NCBI GenBank assembly: GCA_937139605.1
Contig: CAKZQG010000041.1
Location: 1 to 35,511 of the forward strand
From: an uncultured bacterium
GTDB lineage: Bacteria > DRYD01
Direction of reading: 5' to 3'
Length of the DNA: 35,511 nt
In this document: positions 1 through 26,363 of the stretch, piece by piece
Layout: each line of letters opens with the position of its first letter
Numbering within the stretch: the first letter of the stretch is position 1
The notes under the pieces: model-generated
Told to the model about the DNA's origin: nothing
What the model saw: only the letters and a program-made list of their open reading frames with translations
Databases searched by the model: none
Made by a program: the position numbers and the translations under genes

Positions 1-193
1 TAATGTTGGTGTAAGCGATTTTGTATTTAGGGGTGTTATTTGGTGGAGGTGTTATTGGAGGGATTATTGGGGTATCGCTTCCTCCTCCTCCAAAGAATGG
101 TAGCTGACAACTTACCACCACCATCGCCACCACTATAAATAATGCTATTATTAAACTTAGCAATTTGGATTGAGTTTTATTCTTTTTAATCAT
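1..193 (-). CDS. N-terminal part of a lipoprotein, truncated by the window edge
   Basis: Reading the minus strand from ATG at 193-191 gives 64 residues with no stop before the edge. The start is well supported: GGAGGGA lies at 207-201. The product begins with a basic n-region (MIKKNKTQSK), a hydrophobic core (LLSLIIALFIVVAMVV) and a lipobox VVSC, so Cys31 would be lipidated after signal peptidase II cleavage. The mature N-terminus is a flexible Gly/Pro tether (FFGGGGSD, then IIPPITPPPNNTP) before KYKIAYTNI, where a folded domain probably begins. Function cannot be judged because the body of the protein lies outside the window. It was not visible as a full-length gene because it is partial. 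Confidence 0.85.
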   Translation of the reverse strand, partial: MIKKNKTQSKLLSLIIALFIVVAMVVVSCQLPFFGGGGSDTPIIPPITPPPNNTPKYKIAYTNI

Positions 194-349
194 TTATGTT
201 TCCCTCCTTTTGGTTTTATTTTTAAAGAGGATCCTTATTAAAAAATTTAATTAATAACTTTTAAATTCCTTTTTAAAGCTTTATTTATTTTGTTAAAAAT
301 TTTTTAAATTTTTTTTAAATTTTTATTAATTTTTTTTTGGGGTTTTTTG

Positions 350-1140
350 TTTTCTTTTAGGTTTGGAATTTTTTTGTTATCAGATTTAGATTTTTATATT
401 ATGCGTAGATTTTTTTATGCTTATTTTTTAGTTAAGCTCAGCTTTTTAGTTAGCTTTAAATTTTTCCTAGAGTTCCGGTTTTTTTGAAGTTCAGTTTTCT
501 CCTTAGGATCAGTTTTTTAATTGGCGTGTTTTTTTTCCATTTTAGGATCAGTTTTTTTTCATTAGGTTAAGATTTTTTCCTTAGTATGGTTTTTTCCTTT
601 TAGGTTCAATTTTTTCTTCTCAGGATCAAATTTTTTCATTAGACTTAGATTTTTCATTAGGTTTAGATTTTTCAGTTAGAGGCAGGTTTTTCATTAGGTT
701 CAGTTTTTTCTCTTAGGCTTAGTTTTTTTGGTTTGTTCATTAGGTTTATTTTTTTCTCCTCAAGCTTATTTTTTAGGTAGGTGTTTTTTATTTTAGGCTT
801 AGGTTTTTTCTTTTAGGCTCAAATTTTTTTCCTTAGACTAGTTTTTTCCATTTGAGGTTTGGTTTTTATCTTAGGAACAAATTTTTTAGACTTAGACTAA
901 AATTTCTCGTTAGTTTTAGATTTTTTACCTTAAGCTAAGATTTTTTAGTTAGAGTTAGTTTTTTTCATTAGATTCATTTTTCCCCTTAGGCTTATTTTTT
1001 TAGGTAGGTGTTTTTTGTCTTAGAATTAGTTTTTTCTTTTAGATTCAGTTTTTCACTTAGGTTTGGAATTTTTCTTTTGAGATTTTTCTCTTGAGATTTT
1101 TCTCTTAGATAGAGATTTTACCTTTAAGGCTCAGATTTTT
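350..1140 (-). repeat. Degenerate ~19-bp T-tract tandem repeat array (left array)
   Basis: By eye this contains roughly 35 head-to-tail copies of a unit near TTAGGTTTAGATTTTTTC (plus strand), 17-22 bp long, each with a 5-8 base T run. Clear consecutive copies lie at about 637-720. Variants replace the GGTTTAG part with GGCTTAG, GGATCAG or GACTTAG. Unit lengths vary and are not multiples of three, and stops occur in all frames, so it is not coding. A higher-order duplication is visible: 764-789 and 990-1016 are the same 26-base element (one T inserted), about 226 bp apart. The A-rich form of the unit is on the minus strand, pointing away from the decayed genes to the right. Bases 194-349 between this and the lipoprotein are only A/T runs. 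Confidence 0.85.
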
Positions 1141-1226
1141 ATCTATGCTTTTGATTTTTTTACGGTTTTTTCTGCACTTTTTCTTTACAATTTTTTTTCT
1201 CTATAGTTTAGCTTTCTATTTTTTAT

Positions 1227-1559
1227 CTATCCTTTTATTATTTTATATAGCTCTTTATAAGGGATGTCTTCTTCTAATATTTCCTTTAACTTTATCAATT
1301 GGTATCCATAGTTAATTTTCTCTATTGTAGTTATAAATTCTACCCATTATTTTTTTAATTTTACCTTTAGTAATGAATATACTGTCTCTTTTAAAGCATT
1401 TATTTTTAGCTGTTTTAATTGTTCATCTTTTTGTTCTAATTTTTCTTAGTATTTTTTCATTTCTTCTTTGTGTGTTTCCAACTCCTCTTGGTATCTTTTC
1501 TTTTTATCTTCAAAGATTGATTTAGCTATATATTGTATTAACAGATTATCTTTATACAT
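1227..1559 (-). pseudogene. C-terminal remnant of an Rpn-type PD-(D/E)XK nuclease/transposase, copy 2
   Basis: The minus strand from 1559 to a TAG at 1229-1227 reads as 111 codons in one frame. It starts with MYKDN-LLIQYIA-KSIFED, then a Lys/Glu/Gln-rich helical stretch, and ends near KLKEILEEDIPYKELYK. Two in-frame TAA stops break it, at 1448-1446 and 1349-1347. The opening block is nearly the same as the tail of the neighbouring remnant (MYKDN-PLIQYIA-ETIFED near 1914), so this is a second, independent tail of the same family without its catalytic N-terminal part. Such charged, coiled-coil-prone tails are common at the end of Rpn/PDDEXK-family proteins. It is most likely a fossil of a tandem duplicate. 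Confidence 0.7.
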
Positions 1560-1638
1560 CCTCTTTATTTTTTCTTTTTTGTCTACCCTTATTTTACACA
1601 TTGCTTAAAAGTTAAACAAAATTTAAAATAATTAAAAT

Positions 1639-2574
1639 TTAAATAAATTGATTAATTTGGTTTAAGTATTCTTCTTTTGGTAATTCTAATTCTAATATTT
1701 TTCTTATTTTATTCAATGTAGAGATGTCTTCTATTTTCTGTATTTTTTAAAATTATATGATCTATATTTTTTCTTATCTTTATCCTTAATAATATCTCTA
1801 TTATTTCTCTCTCTTTTCTATTTCCTTTTGTTTTAATTGTTCTTGGTATTTTTTTAATTCATCTTCAAATATTGTTTCTGCTATATATTGTATTAACGGA
1901 TTATCTTTGTACATCCTCTTTATCTTTTCTTTATCTTTTCTTTCTCTTTTTTATCTATCCTTAACATCTTTAAAACTTCACCATTGATACTTTAGATCTC
2001 TTTAAATACATTAACTACTTATCATTTTCAACAATATCTCCTCTTTTTCCTTATATATCCCTTTCTTTGTCTTCTCTTCTACTAAGTCTATCATTTCTTT
2101 GAGTTTATTTAAATTATAATTGCTTGTATAACTTTTTATTAGCTCTATTAACCCTAAATAATCTCTTTTTCTTATTATTTCCCTTATCTCTTCATTTAAT
2201 AAATTTATTACCATTACCTCTACTTTTATAAAATCTATTCCCTTTTTATTCTCTTTCTTCATCCCTTCTTTTACCTTGTAATAAAATACCCCTTTACTTC
2301 TCGAATACCTTTTATCTATACTTAATATCATACTTAATACCGGTAAATTGTATTCTTTTTTTATTAAAATATTATACATCACAGCTTTTAATATGCTCTC
2401 TTTATTAAGTTTTGTCTGAAACTCTATGTTTAATAAGTAATATTGATTTTTAATTTTTAATTTGATAACAAAATCTGGAATAATTATTTTCGGATGTTGC
2501 TCTTTTATTTTTATCACTTTTATATCTGTTATATTTTGTATTTTAAATAAATCAGACAATAGTTTAGCTGGGGT
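1639..2574 (-). pseudogene. Decayed Rpn-family PD-(D/E)XK nuclease/putative transposase, copy 1
   Basis: The longest intact piece is 2559-2011 on the minus strand (182 codons). It has no ATG start: it opens at TTG, and a TAA lies five codons upstream at 2577-2575. It keeps the nuclease core of the family: PD at residues 28-29 (IIIPDF), then NIEFQTK with Glu46 and Gln48, matching the D...E-x-Q signature of Rpn (recombination-promoting nuclease) proteins. The usual N-terminal segment before the core is missing. After the stop at 2011 the C-terminal part continues in shifted frames: MYKDN-PLIQYIA from 1914, more stops near 1815, then LNKIRKILELELPKEEY ending at a natural-looking TAA at 1641-1639. 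I infer a gene broken by a lost start, frameshifts and stops. The family is described as transposase-like or DNA-cleaving. Confidence 0.75.
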
Positions 2575-2734
2575 TTAAAAACGTTCGTAAAATATGTTTT
2601 TTAAATAATAATCTATATCCTGTTAAATTTTTATTCTCTAATGTTTTTTTTGAATTTTGTCTTTTTGAGATTTTTATTTATTTTTTAGTTTTTCCCTTTT
2701 GATCAAAAATAGTAAAAAAGTAAGCATTAATAAA

Positions 2735-3350
2735 AAAATGAGTTCTAAGGGAAAAGCTAAACTTTAGAAAAAAAACTGAGTATGCAAAAAACTAAACTTG
2801 TGAGAAAAACTAAGCCTGAGATAAAAACCTAAGTTTTACAAAAAAATCTAAATCTATAGAAAATCTTAGCTTCAGAAAAAAAATGATAGAAAATCTGAAT
2901 CTAAGAGAAAAATTCCAAATCTAGGATAAAATCTAAACCTAATAAAAAATCTGGATCCCTGAGAAAAATCAAAACCTGATAGAAAATTTGAATCTAAAAA
3001 GAAAAATCTAACCTAAGAGAAAAGTGTAACCTAAAATAAAAAGCTAAACGCAAGAGAAAACCTGAACCTAATAAAAAAAACAAACTCAAGAGAAAAATCT
3101 AAACCTCAAGAGGAAAAACTTAAACTCAAGAGAAAAATCTAAACTCAAAAGAAAAATCTAAACTCAAAAAAAATTAAACTCAAAAAAAATCAGACCCAAG
3201 GGAAATACAAATTCAGGAGAAAAATTCCAAACCCAACGGAAGAACTCAAACGAGATGAAAATCTGAACCTGAAAGAGAAATTACAAATCCAACTGAAAAA
3301 TTTGAACCCAAGAGAAAAATAAAATCTGAAAAAAACTAAACTTTAGATAA
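2735..3350 (+). repeat. Degenerate ~19-bp A-rich tandem repeat array (right array, inverted relative to the left array)
   Basis: About 30 copies of a unit near GAGAAAAATCTAAACCTAA lie head to tail on the plus strand. Good consecutive units run at about 3089-3166, with lengths 20, 20, 19 and 19. This consensus is the reverse complement of the left array at 350-1140, so the two arrays are divergent around the decayed Rpn genes. TAA/TGA stops occur in all frames and unit lengths are not multiples of three, so it is not protein coding. No unit is internally palindromic and no unique spacers alternate with exact repeats, so it is not a CRISPR array. The gap 2575-2735 holds only AT-rich sequence with no gene. 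Confidence 0.85.
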
Positions 3351-3399
3351 AAAAATAATAAATAATAGAAATAAAAGAATTTTTTTAATTTATTTTTAT

Positions 3400-4070
3400 A
3401 GTTATTTTTTTTTATCAATGAGTTTTACTTCTATTTTTGTGATTTTTTTTTGTTTTTTAGTTTTTAGGGGGTTTTTTGAGTTTTTTGTCATATTTCCCTT
3501 TTAAATTACTTTTTAGCAAATTTATTTTACTTTTTCTTTTGTTTTTCCTTTCTTTTGCTTTTCTTTTTCCTTTATGAAGCTATTTTTTGTTAATATTTTT
3601 ATTTTCCGTTTGGACTTATTTTTTTAGAGTTATTTTTTGTCAATTGGTTTTAGTTTTTTAAACTACTGTATTTTTTCAATTTAGAATTTGTTTTTTAACA
3701 TTTTTTTTATTTTTTTCTTTGGGCACTTTCTTTTCTTTTAGAGTTAGTTTTTTATAAATTGGATTTAATTTTTTTACTCGGTAGTTATTTTTTATTTAGA
3801 GTGTATTCTTTGCAATTAGTTTTATTTTTTCTTTAATAAGATTTTACTTTTAGATTTATTTCTTTATCAATATTTAATCTTTTATACTGGGGGGTGTTGT
3901 TTTTATTTTAGAAAATTTTGTTTTTCATTTAGAATTGTTTTTTAGTAATTATGTTACATTTTTTAGGTATTCTTTTTTTCTTAAATTTACTTTTTAAAAT
4001 AATCACTTTCATTTTTTTATTGATTTTATTTTTTTTGTTATTTATTTTTTTCTTTTTTTCATTTTTTTTC
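3400..4070. repeat. T-rich degenerate repeat field with a ~114-bp higher-order period
   Basis: This stretch is strongly T-rich on the plus strand. Blocks starting at 3621 and 3735 align over about 70 bases (TTTTAGAGTTA, then a T run, CAATTGG/AAATTGG, GGTTTTAG/GGATTTAA, ACTACTG/ACTCGGT, and so on). That gives a period of 114 bp, and a shorter related block begins near 3577. The units differ from the 19-bp arrays to the left but share the short-word-plus-T-run style. From 4070 to 4325 only near-homopolymeric T-rich sequence follows; the open frame there would encode an 83-residue run of Phe, Leu and Val and looks like a composition artefact. I see no gene here. Confidence 0.65.
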
Positions 4071-4390
4071 TAGTTGGTTTGTTTCTTTATTTTTGTTTTA
4101 TTTACTGTTGATTTGACAGTTTTCTTTGTGTTTATTTTTTCTTTTGATTTAATTTTGCTCTATGTTTTATTTTTTCCTGTTTGTTCCAATTTTTTCTTCT
4201 TGGTTTTATTTTCCTTTTTATTTCATTCTTTTCTATTTTTTTATCTTTATTCTTTTTGTGTTTGTTTTTTTGTTTATTTTATTTTTTCTTTTATATTATT
4301 TTTTTATGTTTTGTTTATAGGATAACAAAAAAATATGTAGAATAATAATAAGAGAAAAATAAAATAAAGATGATAATAAGAATGTAATTA

Positions 4391-4422
4391 CCGCTAAGTG
4401 GAAGCGGAATATAAATATCCAC
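4391..4422 (+). ncRNA. Potential H-type pseudoknot in the rpsB 5' leader
   Basis: A GC-containing island sits in an otherwise A-rich leader. Stem 1 pairs CCGCT (4391-4395) with AGCGG (4403-4407). The loop bases GTGGA (4398-4402) pair perfectly with TCCAC (4418-4422) downstream. Loop 1 is two A residues and loop 3 is ten A/T bases, which is the geometry of a classical H-type pseudoknot. The rpsB Shine-Dalgarno (AGAGG, 4436-4440) follows 13 bases later. Autoregulatory S2-binding leaders upstream of rpsB are known in other bacterial groups; this one may be an analogue. The pairing is seen directly; the function is inferred. Confidence 0.5.
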
Positions 4423-4444
4423 AAGTAAAAAATAAAGAGGAAAT

Positions 4445-5146
4445 ATGGTTGCAACTATAAAAGATTTATTAGAAAATGGTTGTCATTTTGGACACCCTAC
4501 TAAGAAATGGCACCCTAATATGAAAAAGTTTATATTTACTAAACGTGGGGGAATATATATAATTGACTTAGCTAAAACCTTAAATCAATTACAAAAAGCA
4601 TATAACTATTTAAAAGAGCAAGCTGCTAATGGAGCAGAATTCCTAATAGTAGGTACTAAAAGACATACCAGAGATATCATTAGAAATGAGGCTAAAAGAG
4701 CTAATATTCATTATATAGTTGAGCGTTGGATTGGTGGCTTATTTACTAATTTCAGTATAATTAGAAGTAGAATAGATTATATGCTACAACTCGAAAAAAT
4801 GGCAAATGAAGGAATCCTAGAACAATTACCTAAAAAAACCGCTAAAAAATACTATAAAGAACTCCAATACTTACAAAACCAATATGAAGGACTTAGAAAT
4901 ATGTATAAAATCCCCGATGTTTTGATAGTAGTAGATGTAAGAAGAGAAGATATTGCAATAGCAGAAGCTAATAAAATGGGGATCCCTATATTGGGGATAG
5001 TAGATACAGACGGGAACCCCGATATAGTTAGCTTACCTATCCCAGCTAATGATGATGCACTAAAATCTGTCCAATTTTTAACAGCTAAAATAGCAGACGC
5101 TATATTTGAAGGTAAGAACGCTTACCAAAGTACTGTCGCCGTATAA
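4445..5146 (+). CDS. rpsB: 30S ribosomal protein S2
   Basis: This protein of the small subunit body helps dock S1 and mRNA. At 233 residues it is close to the bacterial norm (about 230-260). The sequence is unmistakable: LLENGCHFGHPTKKWHPNMK near the N-terminus, FTKRGGIYIIDLAKT, GTKRHTRDII and ERWIGGLFTNF in the middle, PDVLIVVDVRRE around residue 158, then GIPILGIVDTDGNPD and PIPANDDALKSV in the C-terminal core. AGAGG at 4436-4440 supports the ATG. A possible regulatory pseudoknot lies just upstream. The usual partner tsf (EF-Ts) does not follow; a small membrane protein and gyrB do, so this rpsB is uncoupled from its common operon. Confidence 0.98.
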   Translation: MVATIKDLLENGCHFGHPTKKWHPNMKKFIFTKRGGIYIIDLAKTLNQLQKAYNYLKEQAANGAEFLIVGTKRHTRDIIRNEAKRANIHYIVERWIGGLFTNFSIIRSRIDYMLQLEKMANEGILEQLPKKTAKKYYKELQYLQNQYEGLRNMYKIPDVLIVVDVRREDIAIAEANKMGIPILGIVDTDGNPDIVSLPIPANDDALKSVQFLTAKIADAIFEGKNAYQSTVAV

Positions 5147-5216
5147 TATATAAAAATTAAATAATATTTAATACCTAAAATAATGTAATTTAAAAAGAAA
5201 AACTTTATTTTTATTA

Positions 5217-5230
5217 AAAAAACGTTTTTT
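5217..5230. other. 14-bp perfect palindrome after rpsB, possible weak terminator
   Basis: AAAAAACGTTTTTT is a perfect palindrome in the gap between rpsB and the next gene and is followed by more T-rich sequence. As RNA it could form only a weak A-U hairpin, so termination is doubtful. It could equally be part of an AT-rich promoter for the downstream gene. I see no better terminator in this 104-base gap. Confidence 0.2.
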
Positions 5231-5250
5231 ATTAAGGTTTTTTATATCAT

Positions 5251-5463
5251 ATGGATGATAGGATATTCTGGATAAGTCTTATTATCTCAGTTGTTAGTGG
5301 CTTAATAATTGGTATAATTGTGGGATTATTTTTGCCATTAACTGCAGGAGTTTTTATAACTGCTCTTATCGGAGCTTTCTTAGGAATGATAATAGGCATT
5401 ATTATCGGCACTATTTTGAAATTAAAAAATTCCCAATCTAAAAAAGATAAATATAAATTATAA
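5251..5463 (+). CDS. Small glycine-zipper membrane protein, function unknown
   Basis: This 70-residue protein is almost entirely two hydrophobic helices, about residues 7-31 and 34-58. Both are rich in small-residue spacing (SGLIIGIIVG, then GAFLGMIIGIIIGTIL), the pattern of tight helix packing seen in glycine-zipper proteins. It ends in a basic, soluble tail (KLKNSQSKKDKYKL), which by the positive-inside rule would be cytoplasmic, giving an N-in/C-in hairpin. No clear Shine-Dalgarno precedes the ATG. It sits 104 bases after rpsB and 50 bases before gyrB. Composition and lack of internal stops support a real gene, but no function can be assigned. Confidence 0.6.
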   Translation: MDDRIFWISLIISVVSGLIIGIIVGLFLPLTAGVFITALIGAFLGMIIGIIIGTILKLKNSQSKKDKYKL

Positions 5464-5513
5464 ATTAAATTATAACAAATTTATAAAAATTAAAATTAAA
5501 AGGTTTATTTTTT

Positions 5514-7454
5514 ATGACTTTGGTAAATAAGAAAATAACTGATAGCTATAGCGGAAAAGATATAAAGGTATTAAAAGGGCTGGAGGCTGTAAGACAGCGC
5601 CCAGCTATGTATATAGGATCCACTGATAAAAAAGGATTACATCATCTAATAAATGAAGTAGTAGATAATAGCATAGATGAAGCGGTAGCTGGATATTGCA
5701 ATTATATCAAAGTAATTATTACAAAAAACGGGGAATGTATAGTAGAAGACAACGGAAGAGGAATCCCTGTTGATATTGTTGAATCCGAGGGGAAACCAGC
5801 TTTAGAAGTAGTTCTTACTACTCTCCATTCTGGTGCTAAATTCTCTAATAAAGTTTATAAAATATCTGGCGGATTACACGGGGTAGGAGTATCTGTTGTT
5901 AATGCCTTATCTTCTTATTTGAAAGCAGAAGTTCATAGAAATGGCTATATCTATTATCAAGAATATGTAAAAGGAAACCCAATTAATCCTGTTACTAAAA
6001 AAGGAAAAACTAATAAAACAGGAACTATAATAACCTTTAAACCAGACCCAGAAATATTTAAAACTACTGAATTCGATGATGAATATATATTAGAAAGACT
6101 AGAAGAATTAGCTTTCCTTAATCCATTTATTACCATAGAGTTTATTGATGAAAGAAAAAATATAAAAAAAATAATAAATTACCCCGGCGGTCTAATAGAT
6201 TTCGTTAAAACTATACTGCAACATAATAACTTAAATGAATTATATGAAATAGTTTATATAAAATCCAGTAACCAAGATTTAATTCTTGAAGCTTCTTTTG
6301 TACATACTGATTCTGAGATAGAATTAATAAAATCATTTGCAAATAATATTAACACAGTAGATGGTGGGGTTCATGTTAGTGCGTTTAGGCAAGCTTTTAC
6401 TAAAGCTGTTAATAATTATTTACCCTATTTTTTAGAAAAACTAAAAGAAAAAGATATAAACTTATCTGGGGATGATATTAGGAATTCAATGGTATATGTT
6501 ATTTCAGTAAAAGTACCTAACCCACAATTCGAAGGCCAAACCAAGGCAAAATTAGTTAATACTGAAATAAAATCTGTCTTAGAGAATCTAATTTATAATG
6601 AAATAAAGAAAGTATTTGATACTAAACCTGAAGTAATAGAAAAAATTATAAATAAAGCTATAATAAGTTATAAAGCGCGCTTAGCAGCTAAAAGAGCTAA
6701 ACAGATAGTTTTAACTAAAACTAAAACAGAGTTATTATATACTGTTGCGGGCAAATTAGCTGATTGTATATCCAAAGAATTTGAAAAAAGGGAATTATTT
6801 ATAGTAGAAGGAGATAGTGCAGGGGGATCTGCTAAAGCTGGCAGAGATAGAAATACCCAAGCAGTGCTGCCATTAAAAGGTAAAATTATAAACGTAGAAA
6901 AATCTAATATAGACAAAATATTACAGAATAATGAAATAAGGAGTATAATAGCTGCTTTGGGTTGTGGGATTGATTATGAAGATAAACATTTGGATATTTC
7001 TAAACTAAGATATTCTAAAATAATAATAGCAACAGATGCTGATATTGACGGTTACCATATCAGAACACTCTTATTAGCTTTTTTCTTTAAATATATGAAG
7101 CAATTAATATATAAAGGGCATATTTATTTAGCTCAACCCCCGCTATTTAGAATCATGACTAATAATCAATCTTTTTATGTATATAACGATAAAGAATTAA
7201 ATAAAGTTATAAAAAATTTAAAAGAAAATAGTTATAAAATCCAGAGATTTAAAGGGTTAGGTGAAATGAACCCTAATCAGCTCTGGGAAACTGTTATGAA
7301 TCCAAAAACTAGAATATTAAAGAAAGTATCTTTATTAGATGCTGAAAAAGCTCATAATATCATTAATATACTTATGGGAATTGAAGTAGAAAATAGAAAG
7401 AAAATTATTCTGGAAAACGCTAATCAATTCTCTATTGAAGAACTTGATTTATAA
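5514..7454 (+). CDS. gyrB: DNA gyrase subunit B
   Basis: This is the ATPase subunit of the type IIA topoisomerase that introduces negative supercoils with GyrA. The GHKL ATPase domain shows INEVVDNSIDEA (Glu48 catalytic, Asn52 Mg-binding), EDNGRGIP (from residue 78) and GGLHGVGVSVVNALS (from 119). The transducer domain follows. The TOPRIM domain has EGDSAGGSAK with Glu432 and ATDADIDG with Asp508, Asp510 and Asp512. The C-terminus has RFKGLGEMNP. At 646 residues it has the short architecture of Bacillus-type GyrB, without the ~170-residue insert of E. coli. ParE is the alternative; overall similarity and single occurrence favour GyrB. No dnaA, dnaN or recF lies beside it, so it is not in the classical origin cluster. 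The weak AAAGG ribosome site fits the ATG at 5514. Confidence 0.93.
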   Translation: MTLVNKKITDSYSGKDIKVLKGLEAVRQRPAMYIGSTDKKGLHHLINEVVDNSIDEAVAGYCNYIKVIITKNGECIVEDNGRGIPVDIVESEGKPALEVVLTTLHSGAKFSNKVYKISGGLHGVGVSVVNALSSYLKAEVHRNGYIYYQEYVKGNPINPVTKKGKTNKTGTIITFKPDPEIFKTTEFDDEYILERLEELAFLNPFITIEFIDERKNIKKIINYPGGLIDFVKTILQHNNLNELYEIVYIKSSNQDLILEASFVHTDSEIELIKSFANNINTVDGGVHVSAFRQAFTKAVNNYLPYFLEKLKEKDINLSGDDIRNSMVYVISVKVPNPQFEGQTKAKLVNTEIKSVLENLIYNEIKKVFDTKPEVIEKIINKAIISYKARLAAKRAKQIVLTKTKTELLYTVAGKLADCISKEFEKRELFIVEGDSAGGSAKAGRDRNTQAVLPLKGKIINVEKSNIDKILQNNEIRSIIAALGCGIDYEDKHLDISKLRYSKIIIATDADIDGYHIRTLLLAFFFKYMKQLIYKGHIYLAQPPLFRIMTNNQSFYVYNDKELNKVIKNLKENSYKIQRFKGLGEMNPNQLWETVMNPKTRILKKVSLLDAEKAHNIINILMGIEVENRKKIILENANQFSIEELDL

Positions 7455-21762: not shown

Positions 21763-23301
21763 ATGAAGAGATTGCCAATAGGGATAAGCGACTTTAAAGA
21801 ATTAATAACAAATAATTACATATATGTAGATAAAACCAAATATATATATGAATTATTAAGTAGTTGTAAATATGTGTTTTTAAGTAGGCCAAGACGTTTC
21901 GGAAAATCACTGTTATTATCTACAATAGAATATTTACATGAAGGTCAAAGAGAATTATTTAATGGATTGTATATAGAGAATAAATGGAACTGGAGTGAAA
22001 AATATCCAGTAATAAAAATAAACTTTGCAATAGATATAAAAACAAGTAGTGAAATATATGAGGTAATAAGGAACGAGATAAGGTTGAATTATAAGAGAAT
22101 GGAAATAGGGAAGGAAAGGGAAGAGAAGCATGTAGGGTTAATGTTACAGAATTTAATAATAGAAGTAAGTGAAAGATATAATAAGCAGGTAGTAGTGTTA
22201 ATAGATGAATATGACAAGCCGATATTAGATTTAATAGAAGATAAGAATCAAGCCGAAGAGGTGAGGAAGACATTAAAGAGTTTCTATTCAGTATTAAAGG
22301 TGTTAGATAAATATATAAGATTTGTGTTAGTAACGGGAGTAAGTAAATTTGCAAAAGTATCATTGTTTAGTGGGTTAAATCAGTTAGAGGATATTTCATT
22401 AAGCAAGGAATACGGAGATATATGTGGATATACGCAGCAAGAGTTAGAATATTATTTTAAAGAGTATTTAAAAGGAATAAATATAGAAGAGGTAAAGGAA
22501 TGGTATAATGGGTATAATTTTTTAGGTAGTAGGGTATATAATCCGTTTGATGTGTTATTATATTTAAAGAAGAGGGAGGTAAGGAATTATTGGTATGAGA
22601 CGGGAAGAACGGAGTTCTTATTTAAAATAATAAAACAAAAGAACTTTGATTTACCATATTTACATAAGAAATATTATACAAGCGAGATATTGGAGAAGTT
22701 TGACATAGAGTATATAAGTATAGAAGCATTAATGTTTCAAACAGGGTATTTAACTATAAAGGAGGAGTATAAGTATGAAAATGAAGAGGTTTTGTATTCA
22801 TTAGATTACCCGAATAAGGAAGTAAGAAAATCATTTAATAGTGAGATATTATTTTATATAACGGGGGATTATCAAATAGATAGGACAACATTAATAAATA
22901 TAGCATTTAAAAAAGAAAATCTACAAGAGATAAAAAAACAGATAGAGGTGTTTATAAGTACAATAAGTTATGAAGTATTAAAAAATGAGTATGTATATGC
23001 AGCAGCGATATATGGATTAGTATATGCAACGGGATATAATGTAATAATAGAAGATAATACATCAAAAGGGAGGATAGATTTAACAATAGTAGTGGATAAA
23101 AAAGTAGTGTATATAATAGAGTTTAAAGTGCTAGAGAATGAAAGAGAAAAAGGGAAGGCGTTAAAACAGATAAAAGAAAAAGAGTATCATAAGAAGTACT
23201 TAAATTGCGAGAAGATATATTTAGTGGGGATAGAGTTTGATAAGGTAAAAAAGGAGTTAATTAATTTTGAGTATGAGATAATAGGTGGTGTTGGAAAATG
23301 A
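21763..23301 (+). CDS. AAA-ATPase with C-terminal PD-(D/E)XK nuclease, paralogue 1
   Basis: A 512-residue fusion of an AAA-ATPase-like domain (PF09820 type) and a PDDEXK_9 nuclease (DUF1703/PF08011 type). Function is unknown in the family; DNA processing, defence or mobile-element roles are suspected. The N-terminal signature LPIGISDFKELI is followed by the P-loop SRPRRFGKS (41-49, Lys48). Walker B is VVVLIDEYDKPI with Asp148 and Glu149. VTGVSKFAKVSLFSGLNQL is the sensor-like strand. The nuclease has RIDLTIVV (Asp439) and IIEFKV (Glu453, Lys455), followed by the conserved KALKQIKEKEYHKKYL helix. GGGGGT lies before the ATG. It is first of three tandem paralogues, and its stop overlaps the next start (ATGA, 23298-23301). 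The middle block matches paralogue 3, the C-terminal block paralogue 2. Confidence 0.9.
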   Translation: MKRLPIGISDFKELITNNYIYVDKTKYIYELLSSCKYVFLSRPRRFGKSLLLSTIEYLHEGQRELFNGLYIENKWNWSEKYPVIKINFAIDIKTSSEIYEVIRNEIRLNYKRMEIGKEREEKHVGLMLQNLIIEVSERYNKQVVVLIDEYDKPILDLIEDKNQAEEVRKTLKSFYSVLKVLDKYIRFVLVTGVSKFAKVSLFSGLNQLEDISLSKEYGDICGYTQQELEYYFKEYLKGINIEEVKEWYNGYNFLGSRVYNPFDVLLYLKKREVRNYWYETGRTEFLFKIIKQKNFDLPYLHKKYYTSEILEKFDIEYISIEALMFQTGYLTIKEEYKYENEEVLYSLDYPNKEVRKSFNSEILFYITGDYQIDRTTLINIAFKKENLQEIKKQIEVFISTISYEVLKNEYVYAAAIYGLVYATGYNVIIEDNTSKGRIDLTIVVDKKVVYIIEFKVLENEREKGKALKQIKEKEYHKKYLNCEKIYLVGIEFDKVKKELINFEYEIIGGVGK

Positions 23302-24827
23302 AGAGATTGCCAATAGGGATAAGTGATTTTAGAGAGTTAATAAAGGGAAATTATGTGTATGTAGATAAGACGAAGTATATATATGAGTTAGTAAGTAGTT
23401 CGAAGTATGTATTTTTAAGTAGGCCAAGACGCTTTGGCAAGTCGTTATTATTATCTACAATAGAATATTTATATGAATCTAAAAGAGAATTATTTAATGG
23501 ATTGTATATAGAGAATAAATGGAACTGGGATGAAAAATATCCGGTAATAAGAGTGGATTTTTCAGTGGATATAAGAGAGTATAAGGGAGTATATAATAGG
23601 ATAGAAGATGAACTAGAGATTAACTATAAGAAATATAAGATAAAAGAAGATAAAAAGAAAGATGGAATAAGGAGATTTAGAAAATTAATAATGGATTTAA
23701 GTGAGAAGTATAATAAGCAGGTAGTGGTATTAATAGATGAGTATGATAAGCCGATATTAGATCTAATAGAAGATAAGAAACAAGCAGAAGAAGTAAGAAA
23801 AATATTAAAGGAATTTTATTCAGTGTTAAAAGGGTTGGATAAATATCTAAGATTTGTGCTAGTAACGGGGGTAAGCAAATTTGCAAAAGTATCATTATTT
23901 AGTGGATTAAATCAATTAAAGGATATCTCATTAGATAAAAGGTATGGGGATATATGTGGATATACTCAAAGTGAATTAGAGAATTATTTTAAAGAATATT
24001 TAAGAGATGTAAATATAGAAGAAGTAAGAGAATGGTATAACGGATATAATTTTTTAAGCGATAAAGTATATAATCCATTTGATGTGTTGTTATATTTGGA
24101 TAAAAAGGAGATAAGGAATTATTGGTACGAAACGGGAAGAACAGAGTTTTTATTTAAAATAATAAAACAAAGGAACTTTGATTTACCATATTTGTATAAG
24201 AGATATTATACGGAAGAGATATTAGAGAAATTTGACATAGAGTATATAAGTATAGAAGCAATAATGTTTCAAACGGGGTATTTAACAATAAAAGAGATAG
24301 AAAAGTTAGGGGCAAGAGAAGTATATACATTAGATTATCCAAATAGGGAAGTAAGAGAAGCATTTAACAATGAGTTATTATTTTATATAACGAGAGATTA
24401 TAAACAATATATAACAAAACCATTAGAATTGGCATTAATAAAAGAAAATCTGGAAGAAATAAGAAAGCAAATAGAAGTGTTTATAAATTCAATAAGTTAT
24501 GAAGTATTAAAAAATGAGTATGTATATGCAGCAGCAATATATGGATTAGTATATGCAACGGGATATAATGTAATAATAGAAGATAATACAAGTAAAGGGA
24601 GAATTGATTTAACAATAATAGTAAATAAAAAAGTAGTGTATATAATAGAGTTTAAAGTGCTAGAGAATAAAAGAGAAAAAGGGAGGGCACTAAAACAGAT
24701 AAAAAATAAAGAGTACTTTAAAAAATATCTAAATTATGAAAGGATATATTTAGTGGGGATAGAATTTGAGAAGATAAATAAAAATTTGGTTAATTTTGAG
24801 TATGAAGTAATAGGAGGTAAAAAGTAA
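23298..24827 (+). CDS. AAA-ATPase with C-terminal PD-(D/E)XK nuclease, paralogue 2
   Basis: Same fold order as its neighbours, 509 residues: SRPRRFGKS P-loop at 41-49, LIDEYDKPI Walker B, VTGVSKFAKVSLFSGLNQLKDIS, and a nuclease with Asp437 (KGRIDLTIIV), Glu451 and Lys453 (IIEFKV). All expected catalytic residues are present. The region between the P-loop domain start and Walker B (about residues 92-135: EYKGVYNRIEDELEINYKK onward) is unrelated in detail to paralogues 1 and 3, while the last third is nearly the same as paralogue 1. The ATG overlaps the preceding stop and GGTGTTGG lies close upstream. The stop (24825-24827) directly abuts the GTG of paralogue 3, so translation is probably coupled along the whole set. 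Confidence 0.9.
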   Translation: MKRLPIGISDFRELIKGNYVYVDKTKYIYELVSSSKYVFLSRPRRFGKSLLLSTIEYLYESKRELFNGLYIENKWNWDEKYPVIRVDFSVDIREYKGVYNRIEDELEINYKKYKIKEDKKKDGIRRFRKLIMDLSEKYNKQVVVLIDEYDKPILDLIEDKKQAEEVRKILKEFYSVLKGLDKYLRFVLVTGVSKFAKVSLFSGLNQLKDISLDKRYGDICGYTQSELENYFKEYLRDVNIEEVREWYNGYNFLSDKVYNPFDVLLYLDKKEIRNYWYETGRTEFLFKIIKQRNFDLPYLYKRYYTEEILEKFDIEYISIEAIMFQTGYLTIKEIEKLGAREVYTLDYPNREVREAFNNELLFYITRDYKQYITKPLELALIKENLEEIRKQIEVFINSISYEVLKNEYVYAAAIYGLVYATGYNVIIEDNTSKGRIDLTIIVNKKVVYIIEFKVLENKREKGRALKQIKNKEYFKKYLNYERIYLVGIEFEKINKNLVNFEYEVIGGKK

Positions 24828-26363
24828 GTGAAGAAATTACCAATAGGAATAAGTGATTTTAGAGAACTAATAGAGGGTAATTATGTGTATGTAGATAAAA
24901 CGAGATATATATATGAATTGTTAAGTAGTTCGAAATATATATTTTTAAGTAGGCCAAGAAGGTTTGGAAAGTCGTTATTGTTATCAACAATAGAATATTT
25001 ATATGAAGGGAAAAGAGAATTATATAAGGGATTGTACATAGAGGATAAATGGGATTGGAGTGAAAAATATCCAGTAATAAGAGTAAACTTTGCAATAGAT
25101 ATAAAAACAAGTGGTGAAATATATGAAGTAATAAAGAATGAAGTAAGGTTAAATTATAAGAGAATGGAAATAGAGAAGGAAAAGGAAGAAAATCATGTAG
25201 GGTTAATGTTACAGAATTTAATAATAGAAGTAAGTGAAAGATATAATAAGCAGGTAGTAGTGTTAATAGATGAATATGACAAGCCAATATTAGATGTAAT
25301 AGAGGATAGAAAACATGCAGAAGAGATAAGAAAAACATTAAAGAGTTTCTATTCAGTATTGAAGGCATTAGATAAATATATAAGATTTGTGTTGGTAACG
25401 GGGGTGAGTAAATTTGCGAAAGTATCTCTTTTTAGTGGGTTAAATCAGTTAAAGGATATATCATTAGATAAAAGGTATGGAGACATATGCGGATATACGC
25501 AAGAAGAATTAGAGAATTATTTTAAAGAGTATCTGGATAATGTAAATATAGAAGAAGTAAAGGAATGGTATAATGGATATAATTTTTTAGGTAGTAAGGT
25601 ATATAATCCCTTTGATGTGTTGTTATATTTAGATAAGAAAGAGATAAGGAGTTATTGGTATGAGACGGGAACCCCAAGTTTTTTAATAAAGTTAATAAAA
25701 CAAAAGGAGTATAATATAGTGGAATTAGAAGGAATAAAAGCGGATGAGAGTTTATTAAATAAATTTGATGTAGAAGAAATAGAAATAGAAGCGATAATGT
25801 TTCAAAGTGGATATTTAACCATAAAGGATTATAAGGTAAGTGAAAATGGGATATTGTTTGAGTTAGGATTTCCGAATAAAGAGGTAAGAGTATCATTTAA
25901 TAGAGATATATTGTATAATTTAGTAAAACAGAAATCAAAGGTAAATGTAATAGCAGAAAAAATAATAGAGATATTAAAAACAGAAAAAATAGAGGAGTTA
26001 AAGGAACAAATAGAGATATTAATAAGTGCAATAAGTTATATGTATTTAAAGGAAGAATATAGTTATGTAATAGCAGTATATAGTATGTTATATACAACGG
26101 GATTGAATGTAATAATAGAGGATAACACATCAAAAGGGCGGATAGATATGAGTGTGATAGTAGATAAAAAATTAGTGTATATAATAGAGTTTAAAGTGCT
26201 AGAGAGTAAAAGAGAAAAAGGGAGGGCATTAAAACAAATTAAAGAAAAAGAATACTTTAAAAAATATTTAAATTATGAAAAAATTTATCTATTAGGGGTA
26301 GAGTTTGATAAAAATAATAAAGGATTAGCTAATTTTGAATATGAATTAATAAATAGAGATTAA
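24828..26363 (+). CDS. AAA-ATPase with C-terminal PD-(D/E)XK nuclease, paralogue 3
   Basis: 511 residues, with a GTG start directly after the TAA of paralogue 2 and TAGGAGGT at 24811-24818 as ribosome site. P-loop SRPRRFGKS at 41-49, Walker B LIDEYDKPI, and nuclease residues Asp440 (KGRIDMSVIV), Glu454 and Lys456 (IIEFKV). The middle segment before Walker B is near identical to paralogue 1. The central segment after the GT/YET motif (TPSFLIKLIKQKEYNIVEL onward, about residues 280-415) diverges from the other two, which carry a TEFLFKIIKQ-NFDLPYL version. This variable block sits between ATPase and nuclease, where a partner- or target-recognition surface could be. Intact active sites suggest it is functional. 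The prepilin-like gene follows after 52 bases. Confidence 0.9.
   Translation: MKKLPIGISDFRELIEGNYVYVDKTRYIYELLSSSKYIFLSRPRRFGKSLLLSTIEYLYEGKRELYKGLYIEDKWDWSEKYPVIRVNFAIDIKTSGEIYEVIKNEVRLNYKRMEIEKEKEENHVGLMLQNLIIEVSERYNKQVVVLIDEYDKPILDVIEDRKHAEEIRKTLKSFYSVLKALDKYIRFVLVTGVSKFAKVSLFSGLNQLKDISLDKRYGDICGYTQEELENYFKEYLDNVNIEEVKEWYNGYNFLGSKVYNPFDVLLYLDKKEIRSYWYETGTPSFLIKLIKQKEYNIVELEGIKADESLLNKFDVEEIEIEAIMFQSGYLTIKDYKVSENGILFELGFPNKEVRVSFNRDILYNLVKQKSKVNVIAEKIIEILKTEKIEELKEQIEILISAISYMYLKEEYSYVIAVYSMLYTTGLNVIIEDNTSKGRIDMSVIVDKKLVYIIEFKVLESKREKGRALKQIKEKEYFKKYLNYEKIYLLGVEFDKNNKGLANFEYELINRD

Follow-up and report, generated by a model that had tools for sequence, protein, structure and literature searches.

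A decayed Rpn-like gene cassette between tandem repeat arrays, a probable relic of a prokaryotic satellite

In this work, we describe a locus of an uncultured bacterium, in which arrays of a short tandem repeat enclose broken genes of an Rpn-like nuclease. The window, that is the whole stretch of 35,511 nucleotides analysed, is the complete contig C41 of a 1.88-Mb genome, assembled in 45 contigs and having a G+C content of about 25%. It probably contains a dead copy of a multi-copy Rpn cassette lying within tandem repeat tracts, a prokaryotic satellite homogenised by recombination.

Two arrays of a degenerate 19-bp repeat were delimited by cyclic (wraparound) profile alignment: A1 (350..1159, plus strand), of about 44 units (44–45), with consensus CTCTTAGGTTTAGATTTTT, and A2 (2708..3353, minus strand), of about 36 units (36–37), in which the repeat of A1 is inverted. 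Both arrays, and the reverse-complementary relationship of their consensus units, had been recognised in a preliminary description of the locus, which set the copies at 30–35 per array, too low a figure, and overlooked a weaker third array, A3 (about 3615..4320, plus strand), made of about 37 T-rich units (CTATTAGTTTTATTTTTTT) related to the A1/A2 unit and located between A2 and rpsB. Profile scores are 479 for A1 and 418 for A2, against a shuffle maximum of 27 for each; when, to guard against circularity, the profile was retrained on each dinucleotide shuffle too, the scores were 519 (shuffle maximum 145) and 447 (122), while Tandem Repeats Finder (TRF) returned 381 (133) and 426 (134), a several-fold excess by either method. 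For A3, the retrained profile score of 238 exceeds the shuffle maximum of 119, but the TRF score of 206 falls inside the shuffle range (maximum 273): the array is significant by profile, not by TRF alone. Mean pairwise identity of units is about 0.71 inside A1 and inside A2 (0.67–0.76, depending on unit distance) and 0.68 between the two arrays, which are therefore a single population of units in opposite orientations. No exact repeat longer than 23 bp is retained in A1 or A2. The arrays had been said to point outward: they do lie on opposite strands, the T-rich strand being plus in A1 and minus in A2, but the outward sense is a convention only. Since the 19–20 bp units are contiguous, with no unique spacers, the locus is not a CRISPR (clustered regularly interspaced short palindromic repeats), as already proposed.

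The region between A1 and A2 (1236-2702) is Rpn-like and, as previously noticed, broken, the best match being interrupted by one TGA and five TAA codons. A search with the open reading frame of this region identified intact homologues, 84–88% identical at the protein level, on contigs C1 and C26 of the same genome, and comparison with these at the DNA level resolved the region into two partial copies, fused head to tail. The first (1236..1591, minus strand) is a C-terminal fragment of a decayed gene of the C26 type, 81% identical to C26 354-715; the second (1628..2702, minus strand) is the bulk of a decayed gene of the C1 type together with its 5' flank, 86–88% identical to C1 1373-2622. The only long open reading frame of the block, at 2011-2559 on the minus strand, keeps the residues of the PD..IEFQ motif.

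Assignment of the protein was made through intermediates. No direct match to PF12784, PF04754 or TIGR01784 was found in Pfam/NCBIfam for the proteins of the window, C1, C26 or C17 (a contig carrying a diverged intact copy), and direct profile comparison with PF12784 members gave no match either. Proteins of other genomes were matched by profile at 97% probability (expect value, E, 5e-11); one of these intermediates matches TIGR01784 at E 9e-8, below the curated cut-off, and a profile of the intermediates in turn reaches PF12784 members at 88%. All four copies have D51, E68 and Q70 unchanged, and the PD..(I/L)E(F)Q core is present. Several EAKQKEEELKQKER-like amino-acid repeats are found near the C-terminus of the C1 protein and fewer in the C26 protein, the two C-termini being different; Rpn proteins are described as having a variable C-terminal region in which short amino-acid repeats occur (PMC10327210), and their genes are known to be multi-copy, decaying and tandemly duplicated (PMC10327210, PMC5350276). 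In the absence of a direct curated-model match, we call the protein Rpn-like, on the strength of the intermediates, the conserved D/E/Q residues and the variable, repeat-bearing C-termini. A single-sequence structure prediction reached a predicted local distance difference test (pLDDT) value of 38 and was not used.

Both intact genes lie flush within young arrays of an exact 20-bp unit, TCAAA-NN-GTTC-NN-TTTGG-NN. Unlike those of the window, the arrays flanking the intact copies run in the same direction: because of this, the mirrored layout, previously viewed as a symmetrical design, is not a conserved feature. C1 ends in the same 77 nt with which C26 begins, and its first 77 nt are also those of C41, as expected if these contigs are neighbours in the assembly graph. 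The likely order is lipoprotein 5' end, array (about 52 units), rpn1, array (at least 60 units), rpn2, older array (about 16 units), lipoprotein remnant and a smpB-like gene, the latter picked out by visual inspection of the translated sequence. The arrays to the left and to the right of rpn1 have identical blocks of 151 bp in common, and the left and middle arrays have blocks of 206 bp; when unit order was shuffled, the longest identical block was 72 bp. Such block sharing is a trace expected of unequal exchange or gene conversion. Young arrays feature a uniform core and diverged edges next to Rpn. Block identity and the gradient from core to edge are the marks of a satellite, and identify these tracts as head-to-tail units homogenised by unequal exchange. 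Mean unit identity is 0.77–0.82 in arrays adjoining an intact Rpn gene and 0.62–0.71 in those adjoining a broken one, or none.

In the host genome, the young unit is restricted to this pair of contigs: its 110 loose and 74 tandem matches all fall on C1 or C26, and the tandem form has no match in 385 other genomes. Window-type matches with E below 0.013 all fall in A1 or A2; a single match on C8, at 0.0135, is isolated and not an array. Arrays were searched with three profiles over 873 kb, about half of the genome, in stretches partly picked for Rpn or model matches; for this reason, no P value was put on the association between arrays and Rpn genes. Besides C1, C26 and the window, arrays were found only on C28, C3, C2 and C6, those on C28, C2 and C6 being faint; a further match, on C43, falls in coding sequence of a repetitive, coiled-coil-like type and was considered a false positive. 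In stretch L158 (1488-2030), a T-rich array of a related unit lies upstream of a secA-like gene, away from any Rpn. A link with Rpn, set beforehand as a test, is borne out: arrays abut both intact genes and also the remnants on C41, C28, C2 and C6, the C28 array enclosing an Rpn 5' remnant 91% identical over 90 bp. The same search with the window's Rpn-like reading frame located Rpn remnants on C35, C2, C6 and C37 and the diverged intact gene on C17, which adjoins genes resembling a type III restriction-modification system, in a defence-like neighbourhood (stretch L191, 10750-16355). A genome-wide profile with no link to Rpn, the outcome which the preliminary description had named as contrary to its view, was not observed, the scanned sequence being otherwise free of arrays, except for C3 and two short stretches near AAA-ATPase/PDDEXK_9 genes.

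Outside the host, six relatives lack this Rpn gene by the same search, and in relatives of the same genus and family no arrays were detected, whether with the model, with the pattern of the young unit or in those stretches of sequence that were read; a close relative of the host, labelled 'Deltaproteobacteria bacterium isolate RSWP7', has a GyrB 92% identical, and the host order holds few genomes. In 12 other genomes, the PF12784 Rpn loci have repeats within the gene and no 20-bp flanking arrays were found, so that the association is not general to Rpn; two of these loci, in two genomes of one other genus, have 42-bp tandem arrays nearby, in stretches L291 (377-695) and L293 (1119-1380). Viral contigs, phages and plasmids contain neither an Rpn relative nor the young unit, and no paper connecting Rpn or YhgA genes with flanking tandem repeats was found in the literature. 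Among the genomes searched, this is the only one in which an Rpn gene was found within long recombining 20-bp tandem tracts.

At the left border of A1 lies the 5' end of a lipoprotein gene (1..193, minus strand; lipobox VVVSC), cut by the contig end. The identity of the first 77 nt with the start of C1 goes with 81% likeness over C1 1-218, and positions 133-356 match C26 1750-1971, where the intact cassette has its other border, at 94% identity. On the right, the border is rpsB (4445..5146, plus strand); in the synteny comparison, none of the relatives, the same-genus one included, has an array upstream of rpsB. A CRISPR-like repeat (GTTTAGCTTACC...GGGAATTGAAAG) occurs in dispersed, apparently decayed copies upstream of that gene in the same-genus relative (stretch L001, 650-3440). 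Farther along the window, at 21763-26363, three tandem AAA-ATPase-like/PDDEXK_9 genes show a strong strand skew; of this family, the host genome has 22 matches and the same-genus relative 33. In duplicated blocks (L160, 8758-11291; L159, 6890-9252; L192, 1080-2670), AAA-ATPase/PDDEXK_9 or Rpn genes adjoin lipoprotein genes whose repeated 'DGSMDNTFG..GKVVVN' units are of delta-60-type appearance. A boundary recurs at one place only, the edge of the Rpn cassette, next to the arrays. Terminal inverted repeats around the gene, as insertion sequences or transposons would have, were not found, the living copies being set in direct arrays. The preliminary description held the layout to be no known insertion sequence; its suggestion of an expanded set of transposase ends finds no support, rpn genes not being considered transposases (PMC10327210).

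We propose that frequent unequal exchange or gene conversion, among units and across the Rpn gene, maintains the likeness of the living tracts on C1 and C26. The same exchange could duplicate or delete the gene, and would account for the tandem Rpn pair on C1–C26 as well as for the two fused remnants in the window. Beside broken Rpn genes, the block-wise homogenisation has disappeared, and the units would drift in sequence and in length. The Rpn nuclease may itself start the breaks that drive exchange, and its loss may be the cause of array decay in the window; that Rpn may drive repeat expansion has been suggested (PMC10327210). A role of Rpn in either driving or binding the repeats is something that we infer. 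Rpn genes are widespread, often multi-copy, and have been called recombination-promoting. With regard to how they multiply, and how their repeat regions expand, the present genome displays both living and dead stages of an array-embedded Rpn gene, with a defined 20-bp unit.

A different role of the arrays, possible although rather unlikely, is that of binding-site banks, either operators or a decoy restraining a toxic nuclease, in which a dimer, of Rpn or of the separately translated C-terminal inhibitor RpnS, would recognise the palindromic core of the young unit, TTTGG-NN-TCAAA. Among 93 core units, recurring variants are almost confined to the paired slots 6-7, 12-13 and 19-20, leaving 12 of the 20 columns with no recurring variants against 8.9 expected (P 0.009 in a simple allele test that takes no account of the shared descent of units). 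In older edge units the dyad is retained in 96% and the GTTC linker in 80%, the freest columns being at the dyad centre; this contrast is partly built in, as the units were aligned by a dyad-favouring profile, and duplicated units are not independent. This pattern of variation, together with the kept dyad, suggests recognition by a dimer, and RpnS has been reported to be a dimer with helix-turn-helix-like relatedness (PMC10327210). A putative relic of the dyad, TTTTGATCAAAA, is placed by sequence and border alignment at the Rpn 5' border in the window (2696..2710, plus strand). Against binding sites stands the loss of the dyad from the units of the window, C3 and C28, as well as its absence near the intact Rpn of C17; moreover, orientation, copy number and even the unit itself vary among loci whose Rpn genes are 84–88% identical. 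A fuller nuclease-satellite system, in which Rpn would recognise its own 20-bp dyad array and its cuts would make the array grow, homogenise it and duplicate the gene, seems to us doubtful; if true, the array would serve as target and vehicle at once, and array sequence and nuclease would change together.

A number of observations weigh against a recombining satellite tied to Rpn. The array on C3, a clear one, upstream of secA, has no Rpn nearby, nor do the two short arrays adjoining AAA-ATPase/PDDEXK_9 genes; conversely, no array could be detected at the Rpn copies or remnants of C17, C37 and C35, and 36 Rpn loci of other genomes have no 20-bp flanking arrays, two of them having 42-bp flanking tandem repeats. 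Array and gene decay could merely share an age, common descent of one locus could produce the same association, and array lengths, derived from a short-read assembly, may be misstated. Arrays lacking Rpn, Rpn genes lacking arrays, at home or elsewhere, and a joint decay of the kind shared age predicts would all suit a neutral, selfish or slippage-born repeat, which by chance surrounded a single ancestral Rpn locus and was copied together with it, neither component acting on the other. We regard this as unlikely, because arrays recur at one and the same cassette border in several loci, despite a changed unit and direction, and because polymorphism is confined to fixed slots.

Tandem repeats beside a toxin-like nuclease gene might also recall a transcribed RNA antitoxin of the type III toxin-antitoxin kind. 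This is very improbable: the repeats lie on both sides of the gene and in either direction, window positions 1-5600 have no Rfam match at E up to 1, the window arrays fold no better than their shuffles, and the protein belongs to a DNase-like PD-(D/E)XK family and not to the ToxN-type RNases. Searches for tRNA and tmRNA gave nothing. RNA structure was discarded more generally, an excess of folding being found only on one strand of the young arrays, and modest; likewise, since the living flanking arrays run in one direction, a hairpin or duplex of the two arrays on one transcript, as earlier envisaged, is not a conserved feature. A coding function of the arrays was also rejected: although the C1 array is open in all three plus-strand frames, a unit length of 20 is not divisible by 3, and TAG occurs in the A1/A2 units. 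Finally, chance low-complexity T-rich sequence in so AT-rich a genome can practically be dismissed, and is refuted for A1 and A2, as no shuffle approached their scores and intact near-identical relatives exist, even if A3 and the small arrays are near the shuffle limit.

The satellite with its Rpn cassette may be compared with several known systems. With Rpn (YhgA-like, COG5464, PF04754/PF12784, TIGR01784) the genes share the PD..IEFQ motif, a variable C-terminus bearing repeats in C1, multiple copies, decay and tandem duplication, and differ in being embedded in long 20-bp tandem arrays and in having no direct Pfam/NCBIfam match. ToxIN, a type III toxin-antitoxin system, similarly has tandem repeats adjoining a nuclease toxin gene; here, however, arrays are on both sides, direction is not kept, no RNA structure is found and the toxin family is unrelated. 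Repetitive extragenic palindromes and bacterial interspersed mosaic elements (REP/BIME), with their REP-associated tyrosine transposase (RAYT) gene, are extragenic dyads which flank a nuclease-like gene on both sides, as is the case here; they are dispersed singlets with a HUH tyrosine transposase, in contrast to head-to-tail arrays of more than 100 units with a PD-(D/E)XK protein. Satellite, or variable-number tandem repeat, DNA offers head-to-tail short units, a homogenised core with worn edges, local turnover of the consensus and block duplications, all of which recur here. To our knowledge, gene-tied satellites of short units are unusual in bacteria, and the present one differs from satellite DNA in being bacterial, tied to one nuclease gene and variable in fixed slots.
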